DNA of 9,661 nt. Source: Candidatus Bathyarchaeota archaeon (GTDB lineage: Archaea; Thermoproteota; Bathyarchaeia; Bathyarchaeales; Bathyarchaeaceae). Where the stretch lies: contig CP070636.1 of assembly GCA_020356305.1 (NCBI GenBank), positions 603,036 to 612,696 on the forward strand, in the 5' to 3' direction. The position numbers and the translations under genes are program-made. Below the pieces are notes generated by a model. It worked only from the letters and a program-made list of their open reading frames with translations. It was not told where the DNA came from and made no database searches. Shown in pieces: positions 972-9,407 of this stretch (within the stretch, counting starts at the first letter, position 1; every line of letters begins with the position of its first letter).

Positions 972-2219
972 ATGTCCTTTGTTTCAAAAATGAAATGTGC
1001 TCGTTGTGGAAATGAATATTCACTTGAGGAAAAAGTCTGTATGTGCCCAAGGAGAGATGATGGGCGCCTCGATATTCATTACGATTACTCAGCTCTGGCC
1101 GTGAGGGTGAATAAGAAACTGCTTGTTAAGCGAGTTCCGAGCGTATGGAAATATCACGAGTTTCTTCCAGTTGAGAGCCAGAGGCACATTGTTACCCTGG
1201 GTGAGGGTGGAACTCCGCTGCTCAGAGCAAATAACCTGGGTAGAGAAATAGGTTTAAGAAATCTCTATTTAAAAGACGAAACGGGGAATCCAACAGGCTC
1301 ATTTAAAGATCGTTCGATGACGGTTGGTGTATCCAAAGCTCTCGAATTCGCCGCCAAAACTGTGGCGACAGCATCTAGTGGAAATGCTGCGGCATCGTTA
1401 GCTGCTTATTCCGCAAAGGCTAGATTGAAATGCTTCGCCTTCGTTTTGGATTTTGCATCTTCTGCAAAAATCGCTCAAATTCGCCTGTATGGAGCAGACG
1501 TCGTGAAGGTAAGGGCAGTTGAAGAGGGCAAGGATCCCACTGTTCAAATGTTGCGCATGGCCATCGAGAAATATGGATGGTATCCCTGTCCTAGTTATGG
1601 GCCCTTCAACCCCTACCAAGTTGAAGGCCCTAAAACGATGTCCTACGAAATCATCGAACAGCTGAATTGGAATCCACCAGATTGGGTTATCATTCCAGTT
1701 GGCTCAGCCTGCCTCTTGACCGGAGTTTGGAAAGGATTCACAGATTTTCACAAGGTTGGCTTTATTGATTCTATGCCAAGATTGGCTGCAATACAACCGA
1801 CGGGGTGCGCTCCCCTTGTGAGGGCTTTTAAGGAGGGAAAAAGACCGTTTGAAATCAAGCCATGGAAGCGCCCTCATACTATTGCCGGGGGGCTAGCCGA
1901 TTTTCTTCCATGGGACAGGGATGCTGCTTTAGTTGCTTTAAGGAACAGGGGAACTGCCGAAGCGGTTTCTGATGAAGAAATACTTAGGGCTCAGAGGCTT
2001 CTCGCCTCTACGGAGGGCATATTCGCCGAGCCTTCTGGAGTAGCTTCGCTCGCCGGACTGATTAGACTTCTTGACGAAGACGTTGTAGGGAAAGATGGAA
2101 ATGTAGTAGTATTAATCACTGGAAGTGGATTGAAGGATCCTGAAGTAGTAACGAAAACATTTAAAGAAGTATCTACAATCAAACCCAGCACCGTGGAGCT
2201 TGAAAAACTATGGACCTAA
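972..2219 (+). CDS. Threonine synthase-like PLP enzyme with N-terminal zinc ribbon
   Basis: This is a 415-aa fold-type-II PLP enzyme. Cys9, Cys12, Cys23 and Cys25 form the zinc-ribbon-like N-terminus common in archaeal threonine synthases. The PLP lysine is K112 in NPTGSFKDR (107-115), SSGNAAASLAAY (135-146) is the substrate/PLP loop, and NPYQVEGPKT, AEPSG (352-356) and GSGLKDP (384-390) match the ThrC family. The phosphate-holding loop, normally GNxGN, reads GSACL here (244-248), and the familiar Gly after FKDR is Ser, so it is a divergent member. True threonine synthase (O-phosphohomoserine to threonine) is possible. A relative such as cysteate synthase, or a beta-eliminase working with the convergent carbamoyltransferase operon, is equally open. 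The start at 972 is chosen for its weak GGATG motif and promoter spacing; ATG 990 (MKCARCG) is an alternative. Confidence 0.85.
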   Translation: MSFVSKMKCARCGNEYSLEEKVCMCPRRDDGRLDIHYDYSALAVRVNKKLLVKRVPSVWKYHEFLPVESQRHIVTLGEGGTPLLRANNLGREIGLRNLYLKDETGNPTGSFKDRSMTVGVSKALEFAAKTVATASSGNAAASLAAYSAKARLKCFAFVLDFASSAKIAQIRLYGADVVKVRAVEEGKDPTVQMLRMAIEKYGWYPCPSYGPFNPYQVEGPKTMSYEIIEQLNWNPPDWVIIPVGSACLLTGVWKGFTDFHKVGFIDSMPRLAAIQPTGCAPLVRAFKEGKRPFEIKPWKRPHTIAGGLADFLPWDRDAALVALRNRGTAEAVSDEEILRAQRLLASTEGIFAEPSGVASLAGLIRLLDEDVVGKDGNVVVLITGSGLKDPEVVTKTFKEVSTIKPSTVELEKLWT

Positions 2220-2340: not shown

Positions 2341-3393
2341 TTACTCTATGATCTCCCAGCTGGCTTGATATTTGTCCAATTCACGGATAGTGTGTTCATC
2401 CAGAGGGTGTTCGCGTTCTGGAATATCCACCGCTTTTATTTCTCCACAGAGTTCCGTGGAGAGATATCTCTGTCCAGTATCGTTAATCATCGTCACTATC
2501 GTCTCAAACTCTGGATGACGTCCAGCAATTTTCACTGCTGCAGCCACGTTGCAGCCCGAAGAAATTCCGCAAAAGATCCCCTCTTCCAAGGTTAGTCTCT
2601 TTGCCATTGTAATTGCTTCTTCTGAGGTGGTGGTTACGATCCCTTCAAGGAGACTTAAGTCTAGGTTGAAGGGCACAAAACCGTCTCCAATGCCTTCAAC
2701 TTTATGGGAGCCCCACTCTCGCTTCGACAACATCGGCGCTTCCGAGGGCTCAACCGCGTAGAGCGCTGTGTTAGGGCTCTTTCCTTTCAAGAACCTGCCA
2801 ACGCCAGTTAACGTCCCGCCAGTACCCTGTGACGCGATAAAACAATCCACTTTCCCTCTAGTCTGCTGCCAAATCTCTGGACCAGTTGATTTGTAGTGGG
2901 CCATCGGGTTGTTAGGATTCCTATATTGATCTGGCCACCAATATTTCCCTGGGTTTTCCTTCCTCAACTCATCTATCTTTTCTAGACACAGATCAACATC
3001 ACTCTCGGCACCCGGCGTGAAAATTATGTCTCCCCCATAAGCACGAATGATTTTCATTCTCTCCTGGCTCATTCCAGCCGGTATCACGATCGTCACTCTA
3101 TAACCTAAAATCTCGCCGACAAATGCGCAGGCAATTCCCGCGTTTCCTGTCGATGCTTCAATGATCTCAATTCCCGGTTTTAAATCGCCAGCCTCGATCG
3201 CTTTTGTTATCATCTCAAGGTATATCCTGTCTTTCAAGCTTCCAGTGGGATTGAAGTATTCTAGCTTCACCAAAATGTCGGCGTCTATCCCTTCGGCGTT
3301 CGGAATTTTCCTCAGCTTAACAAGAGGGGTCCCACCGATGCTTTGGAACAAGTCGTCTAAAGCTTCTTTGTTTTTGTCCCACTTGACGGCCAT
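2341..3393 (-). CDS. Cysteine synthase / O-acetylserine sulfhydrylase-like PLP enzyme
   Basis: This is a 350-aa fold-type-II PLP protein of the CysK/CysM/cystathionine beta-synthase family. The PLP lysine is K54 in NPTGSLKDR, the substrate loop is STGNAG (81-86), the phosphate loop is GTGGT (190-194), the GIGxGF block is at 234-239, the PLP-ring serine segment is GISSG (276-280), and NDTGQRYLST (304-313) matches the family's C-terminal motif. No CBS domain follows. A strong GGGAGG Shine-Dalgarno motif inside the end of the preceding carbamoyltransferase gene lies 8 nt before the ATG, and only one base separates the two genes, so they are almost certainly co-transcribed. In YgeW-type clusters this place is taken by the diaminopropionate ammonia-lyase YgeX. 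This protein is not YgeX-like by motif. It may make or cleave a beta-substituted alanine such as 2,3-diaminopropionate, which is inference. Plain cysteine synthesis is the alternative. Confidence 0.88.
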   Translation of the reverse strand: MAVKWDKNKEALDDLFQSIGGTPLVKLRKIPNAEGIDADILVKLEYFNPTGSLKDRIYLEMITKAIEAGDLKPGIEIIEASTGNAGIACAFVGEILGYRVTIVIPAGMSQERMKIIRAYGGDIIFTPGAESDVDLCLEKIDELRKENPGKYWWPDQYRNPNNPMAHYKSTGPEIWQQTRGKVDCFIASQGTGGTLTGVGRFLKGKSPNTALYAVEPSEAPMLSKREWGSHKVEGIGDGFVPFNLDLSLLEGIVTTTSEEAITMAKRLTLEEGIFCGISSGCNVAAAVKIAGRHPEFETIVTMINDTGQRYLSTELCGEIKAVDIPEREHPLDEHTIRELDKYQASWEIIE

Positions 3394-3394
3394 T

Positions 3395-4438
3395 CTATTG
3401 TCCTCCCATTATAAGGGCCATAATTGCCTTCTGAGCGTGGAGTCTATTCTCCGCCTCGTCGAACACTATGGAGTGCGGTCCATCGATGGCCTCGTCCGTC
3501 ACTTCCATGCCTCTGTCTGCTGGCAGGCAGTGCATATAGATCACGTCTTTCGCGCAGAGTTCAAGCTTTTCGGTTGTGGCGATCCAATCCTTGTGCTTGT
3601 TCATCAGTTCCAGCATTCTCTCTTCGTCAACCTTGAGCACATTTGGGGGCATAAACTTGAGGCTTCCCCAAGACTTCGGATAGACTACGTCTGCACCCTC
3701 AAACGCTTCGTCCATGCTATAGCTTATCTCAAAGCTTCCTCCACTCTCGTCAGCGTTCTTCTTCGTCATTTCTATGATCTCTGGATCAAGCTCCAGACCA
3801 TCGGGATGAGCCAGAACCACGTCGGCTCCAAACCTCGTGAAATTCAGAACACAGCTCTGGGGAACCGCGACTGGTTTTACACCACCAGAATAGGCCCAGC
3901 TTACGACGACTTTCTTTTCCTCAAGAGTACCTAACTTCTCCTTTATGGTGAGCACATCTGCCATAGATTGGCATGGGTGAAACATGTCGCACTCCATGTT
4001 GATCACCGGAATAGCAGCCCACTTTGCGAACTCTCTTACAATCTGGTTGCCCTTTCCATAGATCCAGTTTACCGATTCGCCATAGATTCTGACCGATATG
4101 GCATTGCCATACCCACTCAGCACTCTGGTCACGTCGGATATCCTCTCCGTCACGTAGGGAATCTCATCTCCTGCAAGAGCTGGCTTGTACACCGCCCTTG
4201 GAGCGAGGTATATTCCCTGCCCACCCAATTGAAAGATTCCAGTCTGGAAGCTGTTCCTTGTTCTCAGAGATGGATTATAGAAAAGCATGTAGAGGGTTTT
4301 CCCCTCGAGCAACCTATGTGGAATTCCCCTCTTCTGTTTCTCCTTCAGCTCCGCAGCCAGCTTTACGGTTGTATCTAACTCCTCCCTACTCCACTCCTGC
4401 GTCGTGACGAGGTCTCTGCCCCTAAGATTCGCCGACAT
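3395..4438 (-). CDS. ygeW: Knotted carbamoyltransferase, YgeW / N-acetylornithine carbamoyltransferase-like
   Basis: This is a 347-aa aspartate/ornithine carbamoyltransferase family protein. The carbamoyl-phosphate motif SLRTR is at 57-61, HPCQ at 154-157 and HCLP at 303-306. The middle region (VVVSWAYSGGVKPVAVPQ, TRFGADVVLAHPDGLELDPE, NADESGGSF, ADVVYPKSW) resembles YgeW and AOTCase rather than ordinary OTCase, pointing to the deep-knot subfamily. The C-terminus (HCLPADRGMEVTDEAIDGP, FDEAENRLHAQKA) is more OTCase-like. From remembered AOTCase sequence, the acetylornithine-sensing Glu92 falls on Thr98 here, and the carboxylated Lys after HCLP is Glu312, so N-acetylornithine is not clearly the substrate. 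I chose ATG 4438 (MSANLRGRD) because the longer frame begins at a TTG (4459) with little support. It is downstream of the M20 hydrolase and one base before the cysteine synthase-like gene. The symbol marks family resemblance, not proven function. Confidence 0.85.
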   Translation of the reverse strand: MSANLRGRDLVTTQEWSREELDTTVKLAAELKEKQKRGIPHRLLEGKTLYMLFYNPSLRTRNSFQTGIFQLGGQGIYLAPRAVYKPALAGDEIPYVTERISDVTRVLSGYGNAISVRIYGESVNWIYGKGNQIVREFAKWAAIPVINMECDMFHPCQSMADVLTIKEKLGTLEEKKVVVSWAYSGGVKPVAVPQSCVLNFTRFGADVVLAHPDGLELDPEIIEMTKKNADESGGSFEISYSMDEAFEGADVVYPKSWGSLKFMPPNVLKVDEERMLELMNKHKDWIATTEKLELCAKDVIYMHCLPADRGMEVTDEAIDGPHSIVFDEAENRLHAQKAIMALIMGGQ

Positions 4439-4483
4439 CCGCAACCATCTCACATGCAAAATTCGTACATTGTATCTTAATCT

Positions 4484-4500
4484 CTTTTACTTAAAGTCTC
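4484..4500 (-). promoter_or_regulatory. Possible promoter before the carbamoyltransferase
   Basis: On the - strand GAGACTTTAAGTAAAAG combines a purine-rich BRE-like stretch with a TATA-like TTTAAGTAAA. It is centred about 52 nt before ATG 4438 and would give a leader of about 27 nt. If used, the carbamoyltransferase/PLP pair could be expressed apart from the upstream hydrolase gene. Confidence 0.3.
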
Positions 4501-4527
4501 TTTCATGCTAACATGGTGGTTCGAGAT

Positions 4528-5697
4528 TCATGAAATTAAACTTTCAACTATGGCAACGTACGCTTGTACGGTCTTTTCCACGTCTTTCATGCGTACATGC
4601 TCATTTGGCTGGTGAGCCAAAGCCTCGTTTCCAGGTCCAACTCCTACCGTTGGAATTCCCTTTAAACCATAGGTATAAACGCCGTCTGTGCTGAACTTCC
4701 AAACGTGGGTGTCGGCGCGGAATCCGCTTTTCAAGAGGGACTTCAGTGCTTTTTGAACGATTCCCGTTTTCTTGATGAACCATGGGGGGAAGAAATTCTT
4801 CGTCCTCAATTTTTTTCCAGTCCAGCATTTTATGTCCTCTTCAAGGATACGTGTTGTTCCATCTAAGACGGTTTTTTCCCTTACGAGTTCGCCAACTTTT
4901 TCCTTAATTGGTTTAAGGATTTCGTGTTCTGTTTCCTGAAGGATCGTTCGTCGATCAAAGAGTATTTGGGACCTGTCAGGTATTTGGGGGCCAACTTTTG
5001 GTGAGGCACTCAAGCTTATCGTAGCTATTGTGGCTTTTCCCAGTTTTGGATGAAATGGAAGGTTGGGATTCAACTCTTCTTCAATATAGCTGATCAATGT
5101 GGAGGCCGCGTGAAGAGCGTTTAAAGCGAGTTCGGGCATACTTGCGTGGGCCGTTCTTCCATTCAATTCAACGTCTACGACCGCCCTTCCCCTGTGTCCT
5201 ATACCCAAATCTAGGTTCGTGGCCTCCCCAAGCACGACCAAATCTGGTGCGCTCTCTATCTCCTTCTCGATAATGTGTTGTATGGCGGTTCCCTCTACAG
5301 TCTCCTCGTGGACAACGAAACAAAGTAGCAACGTTCCTTCATGCTCTTTATTTGCGACTTCTTTTGCTGCAAACGTCATAGCTGCAAGAGAAGCTTTCAT
5401 GTCAACAGCCCCTCTTCCAAATATGTTTCCGTTAATTAGTTCAGCTGAGTAAGGTTGACATTTCCACAGGTTGAGGTTCCCAGGCGAAACGTGGTCCATA
5501 TGGCCCTCTAAAACGACTAGAGGACGCAACGATCTCCCCTTGATGAATCCGATAACGTCGCCGAGTTCGTCTATGTAGACCCTGTCTGAGCCAAATTCGT
5601 TTAGAACGTCTCTCACAAAAAAGGCTAATTCCTTCTCCTCTCCAGACAAGCTAGGGATCTGAACAAATCTCCTAGCGTAGTGGATTACATCTTTCAC
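4528..5697 (-). CDS. ygeY: M20 family metallohydrolase, YgeY-like
   Basis: This is a 389-aa di-zinc M20 hydrolase (amide or peptide hydrolase, cytoplasmic). Expected ligands and catalytic residues are present: H66 and D68 in GHMDHV, D99 in GRGAVDM, E131-E132 in VHEET, E158 in LGEAT and H362 in AHQPNE. It follows E. coli YgeY, as I remember it, closely at several places: NLNLWKCQPY, HRGRAVVDVELNG, FDRRT, WTGKKL...FFPPW and VWKFSTDGVYTYGLKGIPTVGVGPGNEALAHQPNE. YgeY is tied to ygeW and ygeX in bacteria, and the knotted carbamoyltransferase follows 89 nt downstream here, which supports the assignment over ArgE/DapE. The start is GTG 5697, preceded by AGGAG with an 8-nt spacer. That ribosome site lies within the end of the upstream 77-aa gene, which overlaps by 26 nt. 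Confidence 0.88.
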   Translation of the reverse strand: MKDVIHYARRFVQIPSLSGEEKELAFFVRDVLNEFGSDRVYIDELGDVIGFIKGRSLRPLVVLEGHMDHVSPGNLNLWKCQPYSAELINGNIFGRGAVDMKASLAAMTFAAKEVANKEHEGTLLLCFVVHEETVEGTAIQHIIEKEIESAPDLVVLGEATNLDLGIGHRGRAVVDVELNGRTAHASMPELALNALHAASTLISYIEEELNPNLPFHPKLGKATIATISLSASPKVGPQIPDRSQILFDRRTILQETEHEILKPIKEKVGELVREKTVLDGTTRILEEDIKCWTGKKLRTKNFFPPWFIKKTGIVQKALKSLLKSGFRADTHVWKFSTDGVYTYGLKGIPTVGVGPGNEALAHQPNEHVRMKDVEKTVQAYVAIVESLIS

Positions 5698-5905
5698 GAT
5701 GGTTACTCCTGAAGGGGGTTTTACTTTTCTCAGGTGGCCGGTTAGGAGGGGTCCTAATGAAACTCATATGTTGTGGAATGTGAACGGAACTCCACATCCA
5801 CACGCCTTTTCCCTTGGAAAAGTCTAGCCGAAGTTTCAAGGCTTTTTTCTCGTCTTTGATTAGGGATTCGACGAATTTCTTGGTCCATCTTTCTCTGAAA
5901 CTCAT
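5672..5905 (-). CDS. 77-aa unknown protein, translationally coupled to HD gene
   Basis: The ATG at 5905 overlaps the TGA of the HD gene as ATGA, and a strong GGAGGA motif lies 8 nt before it, inside the HD gene. These two facts argue for a real translated gene although I do not recognise the product. The N-terminal 40 residues (MSFRERWTKKFVESLIKDEKK...) are charged and helical-looking. The C-terminal 30 are Pro/Arg/Ser-rich and less protein-like. They run 26 nt into the M20 gene and contain its ribosome site, so a frameshifted or shortened end is possible. No signal peptide, membrane segment or metal motif is visible. Its position between the HD enzyme and the YgeY-like hydrolase puts it in the same transcript. 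Confidence 0.55.
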   Translation of the reverse strand: MSFRERWTKKFVESLIKDEKKALKLRLDFSKGKGVWMWSSVHIPQHMSFIRTPPNRPPEKSKTPFRSNHRERCNPLR

Positions 5906-6468
5906 TTTCGCTGTTCCTCCAGCAAGCATGAGAGGAGGTTTCTCAGCTTCGGCCGTGTGATGACCTCTTCTGCGGATTTGAAGAATCTTCTTAGGCTCTG
6001 TCTTGTTGAACCAGCTTGTTCATATTCCTTTGCCTGTAGGGCCATTTCCAGCTTTTCGAGTTGTCTGACAATCTTCGCCTCCTTGGTCTCGCATTTCTTG
6101 TACTCGTTCCAAACGGCCATGTATTTTTCCCTCTGCTTTTTTGGGAGGAGGCTTAGTATTTGGTGCATGGCTGTGTCTTCCCTTGCTTCACTCTCAGCAG
6201 TCTTTTTTGACGGAGTTAGGTCTCCCACAATGATTTCAGGAAGGTCATGGATCAATGCCATCCTGATAAGCTTTAGTTCGTCTAGCCCCTCTAGGTCGGA
6301 GTATATCATACAGAGTATCGAGGTTCTAAAAGTGTGGTCTGCAACGGATTCTGATCGTGGTATGCCTACTTGGACCCAACCGGATCGTGGGATTCGTTTC
6401 AATCTCCCAGCTATTCGAAAAAATTCTACGAGATTTTGAGTACTGGTTCTCGACAACTTTTCCAACAC
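5902..6468 (-). CDS. HD-domain phosphohydrolase (YfbR/5'-nucleotidase-like)
   Basis: This is a 188-aa HD superfamily protein. The metal motif is H45 (SVADHTFR), H74-D75 (ALIHDLPE) and, where the family normally has an Asp (DKLEMxLQAxEYE), Glu138 in EKLEMALQAKEYE. The overall layout (short helix, GWVxxGIPRSESVADHTFR, IHDLPEIxVGDLTP, KLExALQAxEYE) is that of archaeal relatives of bacterial YfbR deoxynucleoside 5'-monophosphatases, so a nucleotide phosphatase role is likely, though the substrate is not visible. The start is GTG 6468, with only a weak GGGG motif 8 nt upstream. It is first in the run HD gene, 77-aa gene, M20 hydrolase, carbamoyltransferase and PLP enzyme, and follows the MFS gene by 106 nt. 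The Asp-to-Glu change at a presumed metal ligand is unusual but conservative. Confidence 0.85.
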   Translation of the reverse strand: MLEKLSRTSTQNLVEFFRIAGRLKRIPRSGWVQVGIPRSESVADHTFRTSILCMIYSDLEGLDELKLIRMALIHDLPEIIVGDLTPSKKTAESEAREDTAMHQILSLLPKKQREKYMAVWNEYKKCETKEAKIVRQLEKLEMALQAKEYEQAGSTRQSLRRFFKSAEEVITRPKLRNLLSCLLEEQRK

Positions 6469-6574: not shown

Positions 6575-7816
6575 TTACGATCTGAGAAAAAGTAGCATGC
6601 TTATGATGGCTATTGAAGATATTGTGACGCTATAGGTTGCTGCCATTGATGACCCGTAGAGCTCCCACAACGTTCCAACTACGGCGTTCGAAATGAAGAA
6701 TGCTGACCCAACTACGAGGTAGTAAAGGCCGTATGCTGTTCCTCTCAGATCGTTTTTAGCGTATTTCGGAATTAGGGCTCTCTGGATTGTTTCGATGATT
6801 CCAATGTAGGCGCCGAAGAGGATAGCGACTAAGAGAGCGTTGAATCCAGTTGCAGGATAACTTAGGATAAGCATGGTAGTGAAGAGAAAGATGCTGTAAC
6901 CCAAGACCAGGACCTTTTCTTTCCCTATTCGGTCAGATAGGACGCCTGCTGGGATTGCTATGGCGGTGTGGCCCACGTTAACGATCGCGTAAACTAGAGG
7001 GAGAAGGGAATCTGTCACTCCAGCCTCCTTTGCGTTAACAAGAACAAAGGAGAAGTTGAAGGCTCCTAAAGAGAAAATGGCAACGATGATGAGTAGCCGT
7101 GAAAAATCTCCTCTTAGGACAAATTTGACACCTGTCAACAATCTTAACTTGCTGACGGATTTGCTGGCGTGCTCCTTGACTATGAATAGAATAATGAGGA
7201 ATGCAATGGTGCCAGGTATCAATGACAGCCAGAAGACACCCTGAATGGTGAAGCCCAGAAGAATCATGGCCATTGAGGCAATTAATGGTCCTATGATAGC
7301 ACCGCTTTGATCGAGCGTTCTGTGCAACCCGAAAGCAGCGCCTTGACGTTTCTCTGAAACTGATTCGCTGAGAAGCGCATCACGAGGAGACGTGCGAACG
7401 GCTTTTCCCACCCTATCAGAAACTCGGACTACAAAAACATCGAAGGGTGCCTTGGCCACTGCGAAAAGAGGTTTGACCACGTTTGAAAGGCCATAACCAA
7501 TTAGGACAAAAATTTTTCTCTTTCTGAACTTGTCAGAAAAGATTCCTGAGACTGCCCTCAACGCGTAGCTTAAGGCTTCAGCAGTTCCCTCAATAAGTCC
7601 CAAAACAGCTTTGCTTGACCCAGGAAGACCCAGGAGAAACGTCGGAAGGAGGCTGAAGACCATCTCGCTCGATATATCCGTGAAAAAACTCACAAAACCC
7701 AAAGCAAATACGTTTCTGAGCGAAGAGCCGTTGGATTTCAAACCTTTCCCAGTCTTCATCGAGCACCCACAAGCTTTGCAACGGATTTTCTTGTATTTGT
7801 GTTTTGGGTGCCTCAT
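6575..7816 (-). CDS. MFS transporter
   Basis: This is a 413-aa membrane protein with about twelve hydrophobic segments in two halves. Each half has the MFS loop 2-3 motif (GIFSDKFRKRK 91-101 and GVLSDRIGKEK 291-301). The signature FFTDISSEM..SLLPTF (44-60), LGLIEGTAEAL (72-82) and RVSDRVGKAVRTSPRDALL (131-149) belongs to a prokaryotic MFS subgroup of unknown substrate that I recognise by sequence. The first 30 residues are basic with a CxxCxC stretch and may not be translated. ATG 7759 (MKTGKGLKS) is a reasonable alternative start, with a TATA-like ACAAATACAAG about 30 nt upstream of it. No Shine-Dalgarno motif precedes ATG 7816, which overlaps a TGCGCGCA palindrome. It might export or import a metabolite of the downstream operon, but 106 nt and the GC palindrome separate them. 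Confidence 0.85.
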   Translation of the reverse strand: MRHPKHKYKKIRCKACGCSMKTGKGLKSNGSSLRNVFALGFVSFFTDISSEMVFSLLPTFLLGLPGSSKAVLGLIEGTAEALSYALRAVSGIFSDKFRKRKIFVLIGYGLSNVVKPLFAVAKAPFDVFVVRVSDRVGKAVRTSPRDALLSESVSEKRQGAAFGLHRTLDQSGAIIGPLIASMAMILLGFTIQGVFWLSLIPGTIAFLIILFIVKEHASKSVSKLRLLTGVKFVLRGDFSRLLIIVAIFSLGAFNFSFVLVNAKEAGVTDSLLPLVYAIVNVGHTAIAIPAGVLSDRIGKEKVLVLGYSIFLFTTMLILSYPATGFNALLVAILFGAYIGIIETIQRALIPKYAKNDLRGTAYGLYYLVVGSAFFISNAVVGTLWELYGSSMAATYSVTISSIAIISMLLFLRS

Positions 7817-8797: not shown

Positions 8798-9274
8798 TTG
8801 GATGAAAAGGATGAGGCGATAATTAGGGTACTTGAGAGGAAAGCAGGGTTTTCCAGCAGGTCTCTTTCAAGAATGGTTGGTTTACCCATTTCCACTGTCC
8901 ATAGAAGGGTTAGGAAGCTGGAGCGAGAAGGCGTAATCATAGGATACAAAGCCCTAATCAACTACGAAAAAACCACGAGGCCGATAGGTGCCTTCTTGCT
9001 AATCAATTTGGCAGAAGTAATTTCTGGAAGAGGCCACATCCCTAAAAAGGATATCATAAATGCCATGGGAAAGTTTGAGGAAATCGAAGAAATAATTGAA
9101 GTTCAGGCAGTCCATTTCGATCTAGCTGTCAGGGCACGATTTCAAAGTCTAAGAAAACTTTCAGCCTTTATCGAAGAGCTCAGATCTATGGAGGGAATAG
9201 AGGAAACGTCGTCGGCGATAATCACAGAAGAAACCATTTTACCACCAACCCCCTTCGTGCGCGCGCAAAAGTAA
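8798..9274 (+). CDS. Lrp/AsnC family transcriptional regulator
   Basis: This is a 158-aa protein with the family's two parts. The N-terminal helix-turn-helix is at about 4-50 (DEAIIRVLERKAGFSSRSLSRMVGLPISTVHRRVRKLEREGVIIGY), and a RAM-type ligand-binding and oligomerisation domain is at about 62-145 (IGAFLLINL...VQAVHFDLAVRARFQSLRKLSAFIEEL...GIEETSSAIIT). The start is TTG 8798: there is no ATG in frame before it, GAGG lies 7 nt upstream, and a clear promoter is at the right distance. The C-terminal extension of about 15 residues is Pro-rich and its last codons are made of a TGCGCGCGCA palindrome. Lrp-type proteins bind amino acids and control their metabolism, so control of the amino-acid operon in this window is an attractive but untested idea. 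Self-regulation is common in the family. Confidence 0.92.
   Translation: MDEKDEAIIRVLERKAGFSSRSLSRMVGLPISTVHRRVRKLEREGVIIGYKALINYEKTTRPIGAFLLINLAEVISGRGHIPKKDIINAMGKFEEIEEIIEVQAVHFDLAVRARFQSLRKLSAFIEELRSMEGIEETSSAIITEETILPPTPFVRAQK
9256..9267. repeat. Alternating purine-pyrimidine GC tract 5
   Basis: CGTGCGCGCGCA includes the 10-bp palindrome TGCGCGCGCA. It is the only such tract inside a gene, in the last codons of the Lrp/AsnC regulator. Confidence 0.5.
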
Positions 9275-9304: not shown

Positions 9305-9407
9305 TGCGGGGGGTGGGATTCGAACCCACGAACCCCTACGGGACGGGATCTTGAGTCCCGCGCATATAGCCCTCATATGCAGGTTGACCTAGCTCTGCGA
9401 CCCCCGC
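9305..9407 (-). tRNA. tRNA-Leu (anticodon CAA) with an 18-nt intron in the D-arm
   Basis: The acceptor stem GCGGGGG (9407-9401) pairs with CCCCCGC (9312-9306), followed by A73 at 9305. The anticodon stem CGGGA/TCCCG holds the intact 7-nt loop CTCAAGA with anticodon CAA. The long variable arm TCCCGTAGGGGTTC and T-arm GTGGG-TTCGAAT-CCCAC fit class II tRNA-Leu. CCA is not encoded. Between acceptor and anticodon stem there are 40 nt instead of the usual 22. Removing 9366-9383 restores a normal D-arm (GCA GAGCTAGGTCAAA TGC), giving a mature tRNA of 85 nt. The elements before and after are normal, so I take it as functional rather than decayed. Confidence 0.95.
9366..9383 (-). other. tRNA intron between positions 21 and 22 (bulge-helix-bulge)
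   Basis: On the RNA, exon GGUC (9389-9386) pairs with intron GGCU (9371-9368), giving the 4-bp central helix with two G-U pairs. The 5' bulge is AAC and the 3' bulge AUA, each exactly 3 nt, with cuts after the second base. An inner CU/AG stem closes a 7-nt loop. This fits the archaeal splicing-endonuclease motif and leaves a consensus D-loop. The outer helix is weak, so the exact ends are likely but not certain. Confidence 0.65.

Follow-up and report, generated by a model that had tools for sequence, protein, structure and literature searches.

The reductive degradation of urate was worked out only in 2025, and in bacteria (PMC12507026). As outlined in the main text of that study by Li et al., urate is converted to yanthine by XdhD, followed by a reduction (YgfK or UacX) and by ring opening (SsnA); HyuA then yields 2,3-diureidopropionate, which YgeW, YgeY and YgeX carry to pyruvate (PMC12507026). 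The order of ureido cleavage in this pathway is still disputed, according to the discussion of it in PMC12990295. The literature that we searched contained no paper on the reductive urate pathway in archaea, and the main text of Li et al. (PMC12507026) does not use any word starting with "archaea". The nearest archaeal case is that of ammonia-oxidising archaea that carry allFGHK and biuret genes (PMC12625717), a different route from which upstream purine genes are absent. Here we analyze a 9,661-nucleotide stretch of DNA (hereafter, the window) from a Candidatus Bathyarchaeota archaeon, which encodes a YgeY-type M20 metallo-hydrolase, a carbamoyltransferase of the group of YgeW and N-acetylornithine carbamoyltransferase (AOTCase), designated CT1, and two pyridoxal phosphate (PLP) enzymes, one resembling cysteine synthase (CysK-like) and one resembling threonine synthase (ThrS-like).

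We read the window as the lower half of an archaeal pathway for reductive purine (urate/yanthine) degradation, a reading to which we give a probability of roughly 0.55 and which draws on gene content, gene order, phylogeny, motif changes and co-occurrence. In the proposed route, relatives with a fuller cluster would encode the upper steps nearby, namely a reductase of the PreA (UacX/PydA) type, a ring opener resembling SsnA and a D-hydantoinase. Some of these relatives add a xanthine dehydrogenase (XDH)-type molybdoenzyme, and the steps together would lead to 2,3-diureidopropionate. The putative role of CT1 would be the phosphorolysis of one ureido group to carbamoyl phosphate, from which carbamate kinase would generate ATP. 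The ureido (N-carbamoyl) group left after this step would be hydrolyzed by the YgeY-type enzyme in the lineage of the window, whereas many relatives would use a second carbamoyltransferase (CT2) for its removal. The ThrS-like enzyme, replacing YgeX, would then convert 2,3-diaminopropionate to pyruvate and ammonia, and the CysK-like enzyme would have an accessory function, such as elimination or replacement of the beta group of diaminopropionate or ureidoalanine (albizziin). All reactions of this route, their directions and the sequence in which the ureido groups are cleaved are our inference.

Identity and distribution of the central genes

A first-pass annotation of this DNA had described three open reading frames (ORFs) on one strand, encoding an M20 hydrolase, a carbamoyltransferase and a PLP enzyme, the last two one base apart with a strong ribosome site, and all three were recovered where it had placed them (Table 1). 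The junction of the CT1 and CysK-like genes reads GGGAGGACAATAGAATGG, comprising a TAG stop, one base and an ATG, with GGGAGG just upstream. An alternative ATG at 4438, approximately 90 bases from the hydrolase stop, yields a CT1 of 347 residues and is likely to be the true start, since several of the closest homologs have this length and residues 1-8 of the longer version are the sole segment of the structural model with a predicted local distance difference test score (pLDDT) below 50. The nearest named relatives are Bathyarchaeota, namely Kmv02 for CT1 and the CysK-like enzyme (85%) and a Bathyarchaeota metagenome-assembled genome (MAG) for the hydrolase (87%).

Phylogenetic inference agrees with the YgeY-like assignment that the hydrolase had received, placing it with E. 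coli YgeY and apart from ArgE and DapE with an SH-aLRT support of 99, although the E. coli sequences form long branches. The protein passes the YgeY model NF009555 (327.6; cut-off 321) and scores below the cut-off of TIGR03526 (241; cut-off 321.5). CT1, which had been called YgeW-like, groups in the tree with YgeW and AOTCase and apart from OTCases and ATCases. Its proline-rich loop, WAYSGGVKPVAVPQS, aligns to WAYSPSYGKPLSVPQG of YgeW and is missing from OTCases, and its 120's stretch is longer than theirs, as expected of the knotted transcarbamylases (AOTCase, SOTCase and YTCase).

In samples of whole genomes, CT1 was detected in six of 250 from the class of Kmv02 (E-value 1e-70), in 36 of 398 from the phylum of AUK008 (1e-90) and in 62 of 100 from the phylum of an Acetothermia MAG. 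In addition to 21 loci from a scan of named genomes, we fetched the regions of 35 of the 36 archaeal CT1 genomes, the 36th (G154) being retrieved separately, and of 25 of the 62 bacterial CT1 genomes. These regions span at most 20 kb, several of them cut by contig ends, and the counts given for them are best matches of 26 queries under identity limits that we set ourselves; several archaeal regions stem from close relatives, so that their counts are not independent.

Two PLP enzymes and the proposed YgeX step

The first-pass annotation had put the CysK-like enzyme in the place of YgeX. Comparison across the 398 genomes, with E-value thresholds of 1e-112 for the ThrS-like and 1e-115 for the CysK-like protein, directs this role elsewhere: the CysK-like gene is found in 14 of the 36 CT1 genomes and the ThrS-like gene in 35, as opposed to 2 of the 362 genomes without CT1. 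With CT1 in 36 genomes, the ThrS-like gene in 37 and both in 35, the association has a Fisher p of approximately 1e-46, uncorrected for shared ancestry. It is not explained by linkage alone, since CT1 and the ThrS-like gene lie about half a megabase apart in G443 (C1:1298956 and C1:803194). The ThrS-like gene belongs to the set, even though it falls outside the coordinates first annotated. YgeX, for its part, was the best match in none of the 60 archaeal and bacterial regions, and at an E-value of 1e-8 it has no match in the window and a single one, of 25%, in the regions (L212).

The ThrS-like protein shares the fold-type-II PLP (PALP) architecture of threonine synthase and passes the corresponding models (NF006050, 340.1 versus 303; TIGR00260, 220 versus 167.1). 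In a tree of 44 sequences, however, it falls in a clade of 25 (SH-aLRT 98), of which 23, counting the window, come from regions with CT1 or CT2, one from another contig of a CT1 genome (G023) and one from a genome without CT1 (G124); 14 other paralogs and four sequences from bacterial clusters fall outside. At the positions of Gln216, Gly210 and Asp310, which all 25 members share, the six sequences that we chose from the tree as canonical carry Arg, Asn and Ile; this contrast leaves out eight paralogs, the four bacterial cluster sequences and E. coli ThrC. The NSxNPxR motif, which these six sequences and the three solved threonine synthases that we aligned all carry, has lost its Arg and Asn throughout the clade; this Arg is presumably the residue that binds the phosphate of the substrate. 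The motif changes, together with the co-occurrence with CT1, led us to reject a plain threonine synthase reading as incomplete. Canonical-type paralogs are located elsewhere in the genomes checked. As a threonine synthase without the motif Arg that is kept with ureido-degrading genes, the ThrS-like enzyme is the best stand-in for YgeX and probably catalyzes the 2,3-diaminopropionate ammonia-lyase step.

Under the best surviving alternative, the route would be the same, but the CysK-like enzyme would substitute for YgeX, through beta-elimination of diaminopropionate or release of urea from albizziin, and the ThrS-like gene would be a plain neighbor. The CysK-like gene is indeed tightly associated with CT1: besides starting one base past the CT1 stop in the window, it lies within 50 bases of CT1 in seven of the ten archaeal regions with both genes, its ORF shares 4 bases with that of CT1 in L168, and 14 of the 16 genomes that encode it also encode CT1. 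Its subfamily is also distinct, with an Asp (GIGD) that is invariant in all 27 aligned sequences where E. coli CysK has an Ala. The absence of the gene from 22 of the 36 CT1 genomes, nearly all of which have the ThrS-like gene, and the occurrence of copies of 63-72% in four genomes (G067, G124, G141 and G155) without CT1 at an E-value of 1e-70 nevertheless make this alternative unlikely.

We read the CysK-like protein instead as an accessory beta-elimination or beta-replacement enzyme, with beta-elimination from diaminopropionate or albizziin and sulfide replacement to cysteine as possible reactions. It shares the PALP family with CysK and CysM, passing the cysteine synthase model TIGR01136 (349.5 versus 344.15) and just missing the cysK model TIGR01139 (345.5 versus 350.95). 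In contrast with E. coli CysK, it has approximately 30 extra residues (350 versus 323) and STGNAG in place of the TSGNTG substrate loop; STGNAG and GIGD are each present in 119 of the 120 listed homologs (GIGAGF in E. coli CysK), and mean column identity in the subfamily is 78% over 27 sequences. Given these motif changes and the co-occurrence with CT1, we likewise rejected an interpretation as a plain cysteine synthase, which would be incomplete.

Another PALP protein, of 490 residues (PLP488), is encoded in L041 (11320-12786) and in bacterial regions such as L219 (5424-6896); its conservation between the bacteria, where it is present in 15 of 25 regions, and the archaeon G154 amounts to 60-65%, and it matches no NCBIfam family above the cut-off. 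No CysK-like gene was detected in G154 at an E-value of 1e-100, or in the bacterial regions at 50% or more, and PLP488 may therefore take the place of the CysK-like enzyme there. In G124, which has the ThrS-like gene but no CT1 at an E-value of 1e-70, an Amidohydro_3 protein (PF07969; L047, 1774-3399) is encoded about 6 kb from the CysK-like gene; PF07969 is the family given for UacY in the text of Li et al. (PMC12507026).

Candidate upper steps of the pathway in relatives

The first-pass annotation had proposed a search for neighboring carbamate kinase, hydantoinase-type and XDH-type genes, and all of these are found in relatives. In the Bathyarchaeota isolate Kmv02 the genes are ordered CT1, CT2, CysK-like, SsnA-like. 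Approximately 15 kb of Hecatella orcuttiae encode SsnA-like, CT1, CT2, D-hydantoinase, carbamate-kinase-like, PreA, GltA/YgfK-like, ThrS-like and CysK-like proteins, bringing together SsnA, HyuA, PreA/UacX, carbamoyltransferase and PLP lyase types, with XDH-type genes elsewhere in the genome. The Hecatella D-hydantoinase (476 versus 393) and PreA (470 versus 335) exceed their cut-offs, the NAD(P)-binding GltA/YgfK-like protein is below that of its models, and the SsnA-like protein is 78% identical to that of Kmv02.

Among the 35 archaeal CT1 regions, we detected carbamate kinase in 22, ThrS-like in 19, CT2 in 16, SsnA-like in 15 (at least 45% to the Kmv02 protein), PreA-like in 14 (all 27-33% to the Hecatella protein), CysK-like, as well as XDH-type, in 10, OTCase-type in 9 and hydantoinase-type cyclic amidohydrolases in 7 (29-56%). 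The SsnA model was the best for all four SsnA-like proteins of at least 47% that were scanned, by a margin of 75-103 bits over the next other model. The 25 bacterial regions presented CT2 (25), carbamate kinase (24), XDH-type (17), PLP488 (15) and hydantoinase-type (6) genes. Every function of the pathway except YgeX has a candidate in some archaeal cluster, with the XDH type absent from most clusters and several candidates below model cut-offs.

Several observations weigh against reductive purine degradation. The window, as judged from its ORFs and family scans, contains no SsnA, HyuA, PreA, XDH or carbamate kinase. The four SsnA-like proteins score below the curated cut-off (426, 360, 338 and 329 versus 444), as do the PreA-like proteins of L180 and L172 (196 and 200 versus 335), the L163 hydantoinase-type protein with both hydantoinase and allantoinase models, and the L168 XDH-type protein (508 versus 780). 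At an E-value of 1e-40, XDH-type matches were obtained in 4 of 13 genomes, with none in G001, G004, G023, G132 or G154, and none of the eight Hecatella matches lies inside its cluster. An OTCase-type gene, one of which was scanned and passes the OTCase cut-off, is present in nine archaeal regions, where carbamate kinase may therefore serve citrulline. The bacterial regions hold no SsnA-like or ThrS-like match of at least 45% and no PreA-like match, and hence support the association of CT1, CT2, carbamate kinase and XDH only. With regard to the ThrS-like enzyme, G002 has CT1 with no ThrS-like match, G276 and G460 have the ThrS-like gene without CT1, and the co-occurrence figure is inflated by kinship among genomes; the motif Arg has also disappeared from other ThrS paralogs of these genomes, and several of the 13 sequences left out of the contrast lack it.

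Alternatively, the cluster could degrade another ureido compound, of the allantoate/ureidoglycine type, hydantoins or pyrimidines, instead of 2,3-diureidopropionate derived from urate. No XDH-type gene was seen in 25 of the 35 archaeal regions, and hydantoinase-type and PreA-like enzymes serve pyrimidines as well. A carbamoyltransferase and a carbamate kinase have moreover been proposed to act on allantoate in Rubrobacter (PMC4016543). A diamino C3 product, on the other hand, fits the combination of two carbamoyltransferases, an SsnA-like ring opener and PLP enzymes. XDH-type genes do occur in 10 archaeal and 17 of the 25 bacterial regions, an adenine deaminase is encoded in L164, and an ABC transporter ATPase, judged by eye to be of nucleoside type, is present at 45% or more in five of the 35 archaeal regions. 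We accordingly regard another ureido substrate as improbable, somewhat more so than a YgeX role for the CysK-like enzyme, and retain purine degradation as the preferred reading.

As controls, four regions around CysK-like genes were taken from genomes that lack CT1 (L047-L050, of which two span at most 12 kb), and none of the other parts was found in them. Nor was any found in seven loci with more distant carbamoyltransferases of 32-43% (L014, L015 and L017-L021), the exceptions being weak matches to ABC in L014 and to CT2 in L021. SsnA orthology was rejected for three other amidohydrolases near CT1 (L039, 6344-7774; L042, 5057-6445; L044, 4469-5863), for which other models score higher. Three MtmB-type genes with open frames lie in or near the Hecatella cluster (L040, 6347-7741 and 7752-9140; L039, 7799-9184); one was scanned (PF05369, 306 bits), and the other two are 49-58% identical to it.

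Proposed hydrolysis or phosphorolysis of the second ureido group

The three adjacent genes had been described as a ygeY-ygeW-like operon with an order to be expected in relatives. Both gene types are present and the order is conserved in part, the CT1-CysK-like pair recurring as described above; neither of the outcomes that the first-pass annotation had set as refuting, in phylogeny or in gene order, was observed. The set is wider than these two genes, however, and an intact YgeY beside CT1 is rare: YgeY occurs in none of the 35 archaeal CT1 regions, 16 of which have CT2. It therefore appears that many relatives may release both of the ureido groups in the form of carbamoyl phosphate. Outside the window, YgeY was seen near CT1 only as an 83-residue remnant (71%) in G154, which has a full-length CT2, and in pairs of listed homologs on same-sized contigs. 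Such pairing, for which approximately 88 (carbamoyltransferase), 87 (CysK) and 60 (YgeY) of the 120 entries per list were compared, is a hint only; it linked carbamoyltransferase with CysK four times, carbamoyltransferase with YgeY four times and CysK with YgeY three times, a pair of 2250 bases barely fitting both genes.

Eight CT1 genomes were contrasted in this respect, with CT2 searched at an E-value of 1e-3 in G002 and G004 and of 1e-70 in the others. CT2 without intact YgeY was found in G001, G003, G132 and G154, a YgeY-like gene without CT2 in G004 and G041, and neither in G002 and G023, the latter a genome of 0.7 Mb. Kmv02, Hecatella and G132 all have CT2 and no YgeY-clade protein. This distribution suggests that hydrolysis by YgeY and phosphorolysis by CT2 are alternatives for the second ureido group. 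In three Jordarchaeia and one Sigynarchaeota (L008-L011), a CT1-type carbamoyltransferase (47-50%) is next to a convergently oriented gene for an M20 hydrolase, which is not a member of the YgeY clade.

Other features of the window

The remaining features of the window are more loosely connected to the set (Table 1). Homologs of the MFS transporter (33-38%) occur in five of the 35 archaeal CT1 regions (L187-L190 and L195), and one of 46% (L239) lies near the YgeY-like gene of G004. The HD-domain protein, which had no homolog at an E-value of 1e-10 in the fetched loci, is a possible candidate for an upstream nucleotide step. The Lrp/AsnC-type regulator likewise had no relative in these loci at that threshold. 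The tRNA, given its 103 bases, probably bears an intron.

Table 1. Features annotated in the 9,661-nucleotide window.
Feature	Coordinates	Strand	Remarks
Threonine-synthase-like (ThrS-like) PLP enzyme	972-2219	+	Convergent with the CysK-like gene
CysK-like PLP enzyme, STGNAG/GIGD subfamily	2341-3393	-	350 aa; one base after the CT1 stop
CT1, YgeW/AOTCase-group carbamoyltransferase	3395-4459	-	354 aa from TTG
YgeY-type M20 metallo-hydrolase	4528-5697	-	389 aa; GTG start; long ORF
HD-domain phosphohydrolase, YfbR-like 5'-deoxynucleotidase family	5902-6468	-	PF13023, 149.6 bits
MFS transporter, possible purine/ureide transporter	6575-7816	-	Weakly linked; homologs in some CT1 regions
Lrp/AsnC-type regulator	8798-9274	+	No relative in the fetched loci (E-value 1e-10)
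tRNA	9305-9407	-	Rfam 46.9 bits, 103 bases; not listed by ARAGORN

Comparison with known systems

CT1 shares with E. coli YgeW (YTCase; PDB ID: 3q98) the WAYS..KPxxVPQ loop, the YPKSW motif and the equivalents of K203, K270 and E344, these residues being kept in all 28 aligned CT1 sequences (the window plus 27 of the 61 CT1 ORFs of at least 48% in the fetched regions). It differs from YgeW in being 42 residues shorter (354 versus 396 aa), in having E156 where YgeW has Q160 and in lacking a counterpart of the stretch around D334; YgeW itself is marked by extra terminal helices and an extended 240's loop. On the basis of model scores, which lie far below the cut-offs, CT1 was not accepted as a YgeW (NF005538, 186.9 versus 453; TIGR03316, 175.5 versus 500). 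Overall, CT1 is closer to AOTCase: it passes the NCBIfam model NF003384 for N-acetylornithine carbamoyltransferase (297.3 versus 288), the solved folds closest to its AF2 model (pLDDT 93.8) are AOTCase, followed by OTCase and YgeW, and it has the equivalents of E144 and K252 of the Xanthomonas campestris enzyme as well as an SxRT motif with a hydrophobic second residue. Its E156, the equivalent of Glu144, would fit a substrate acylated at the alpha-nitrogen and might thus favor cleavage of the 3-ureido group first.

In contrast with AOTCase, CT1 has a catabolic neighborhood and does not keep W77, E92, N185 or K302 (X. campestris numbering), the last three of which are AOTCase criteria in the description given in PMC4581275 and are replaced by T104, P196 and E319 in the 28 sequences, as aligned to an AOTCase chain (3m5c) that itself carries a K302E mutation. 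That CT1 is a genuine AOTCase of arginine biosynthesis with coincidental neighbors is hence very improbable, and this role was rejected, since beyond the missing residues the same genomes have OTCase-type sequences besides CT1 and the arg genes tried were found neither in the window nor in 62 of 66 regions of relatives (argB/argC in one, argD-type in two, a weak argH in one, and argG only in the positive control L020).

The pathway known so far from bacteria looks as if it had an archaeal version built with different parts. We tentatively propose, as a less probable extension of the reading of the window itself, that the Thermoproteota have a reductive urate pathway of their own, with two carbamoyltransferases and two ATP per purine (the YgeY form being a single-ATP variant of the window lineage), a diaminopropionate ammonia-lyase derived from threonine synthase, and an enzyme derived from CysK that draws on the same pool, perhaps for cysteine. 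If the purine reading is correct, energy-yielding purine breakdown would be added to archaea, and the labels "N-acetylornithine carbamoyltransferase" and "threonine synthase" that databases give to such archaeal genes would be corrected. An archaeal version with two carbamoyltransferases, or with one and YgeY, would furthermore allow a clean decision on which ureido group is cleaved first.

The archaeal set resembles the reductive urate clusters of E. coli and C. difficile in the YgeY-type hydrolase of the window, in the YgeW-group carbamoyltransferase and carbamate kinase of its relatives, and in the clustering of SsnA-like, D-hydantoinase and PreA genes with a YgeW-group carbamoyltransferase in Hecatella. 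It departs from them in that YgeX was not found and ThrS-like, often together with CysK-like, PLP enzymes are present, and in that many members have two carbamoyltransferases and few have YgeY.

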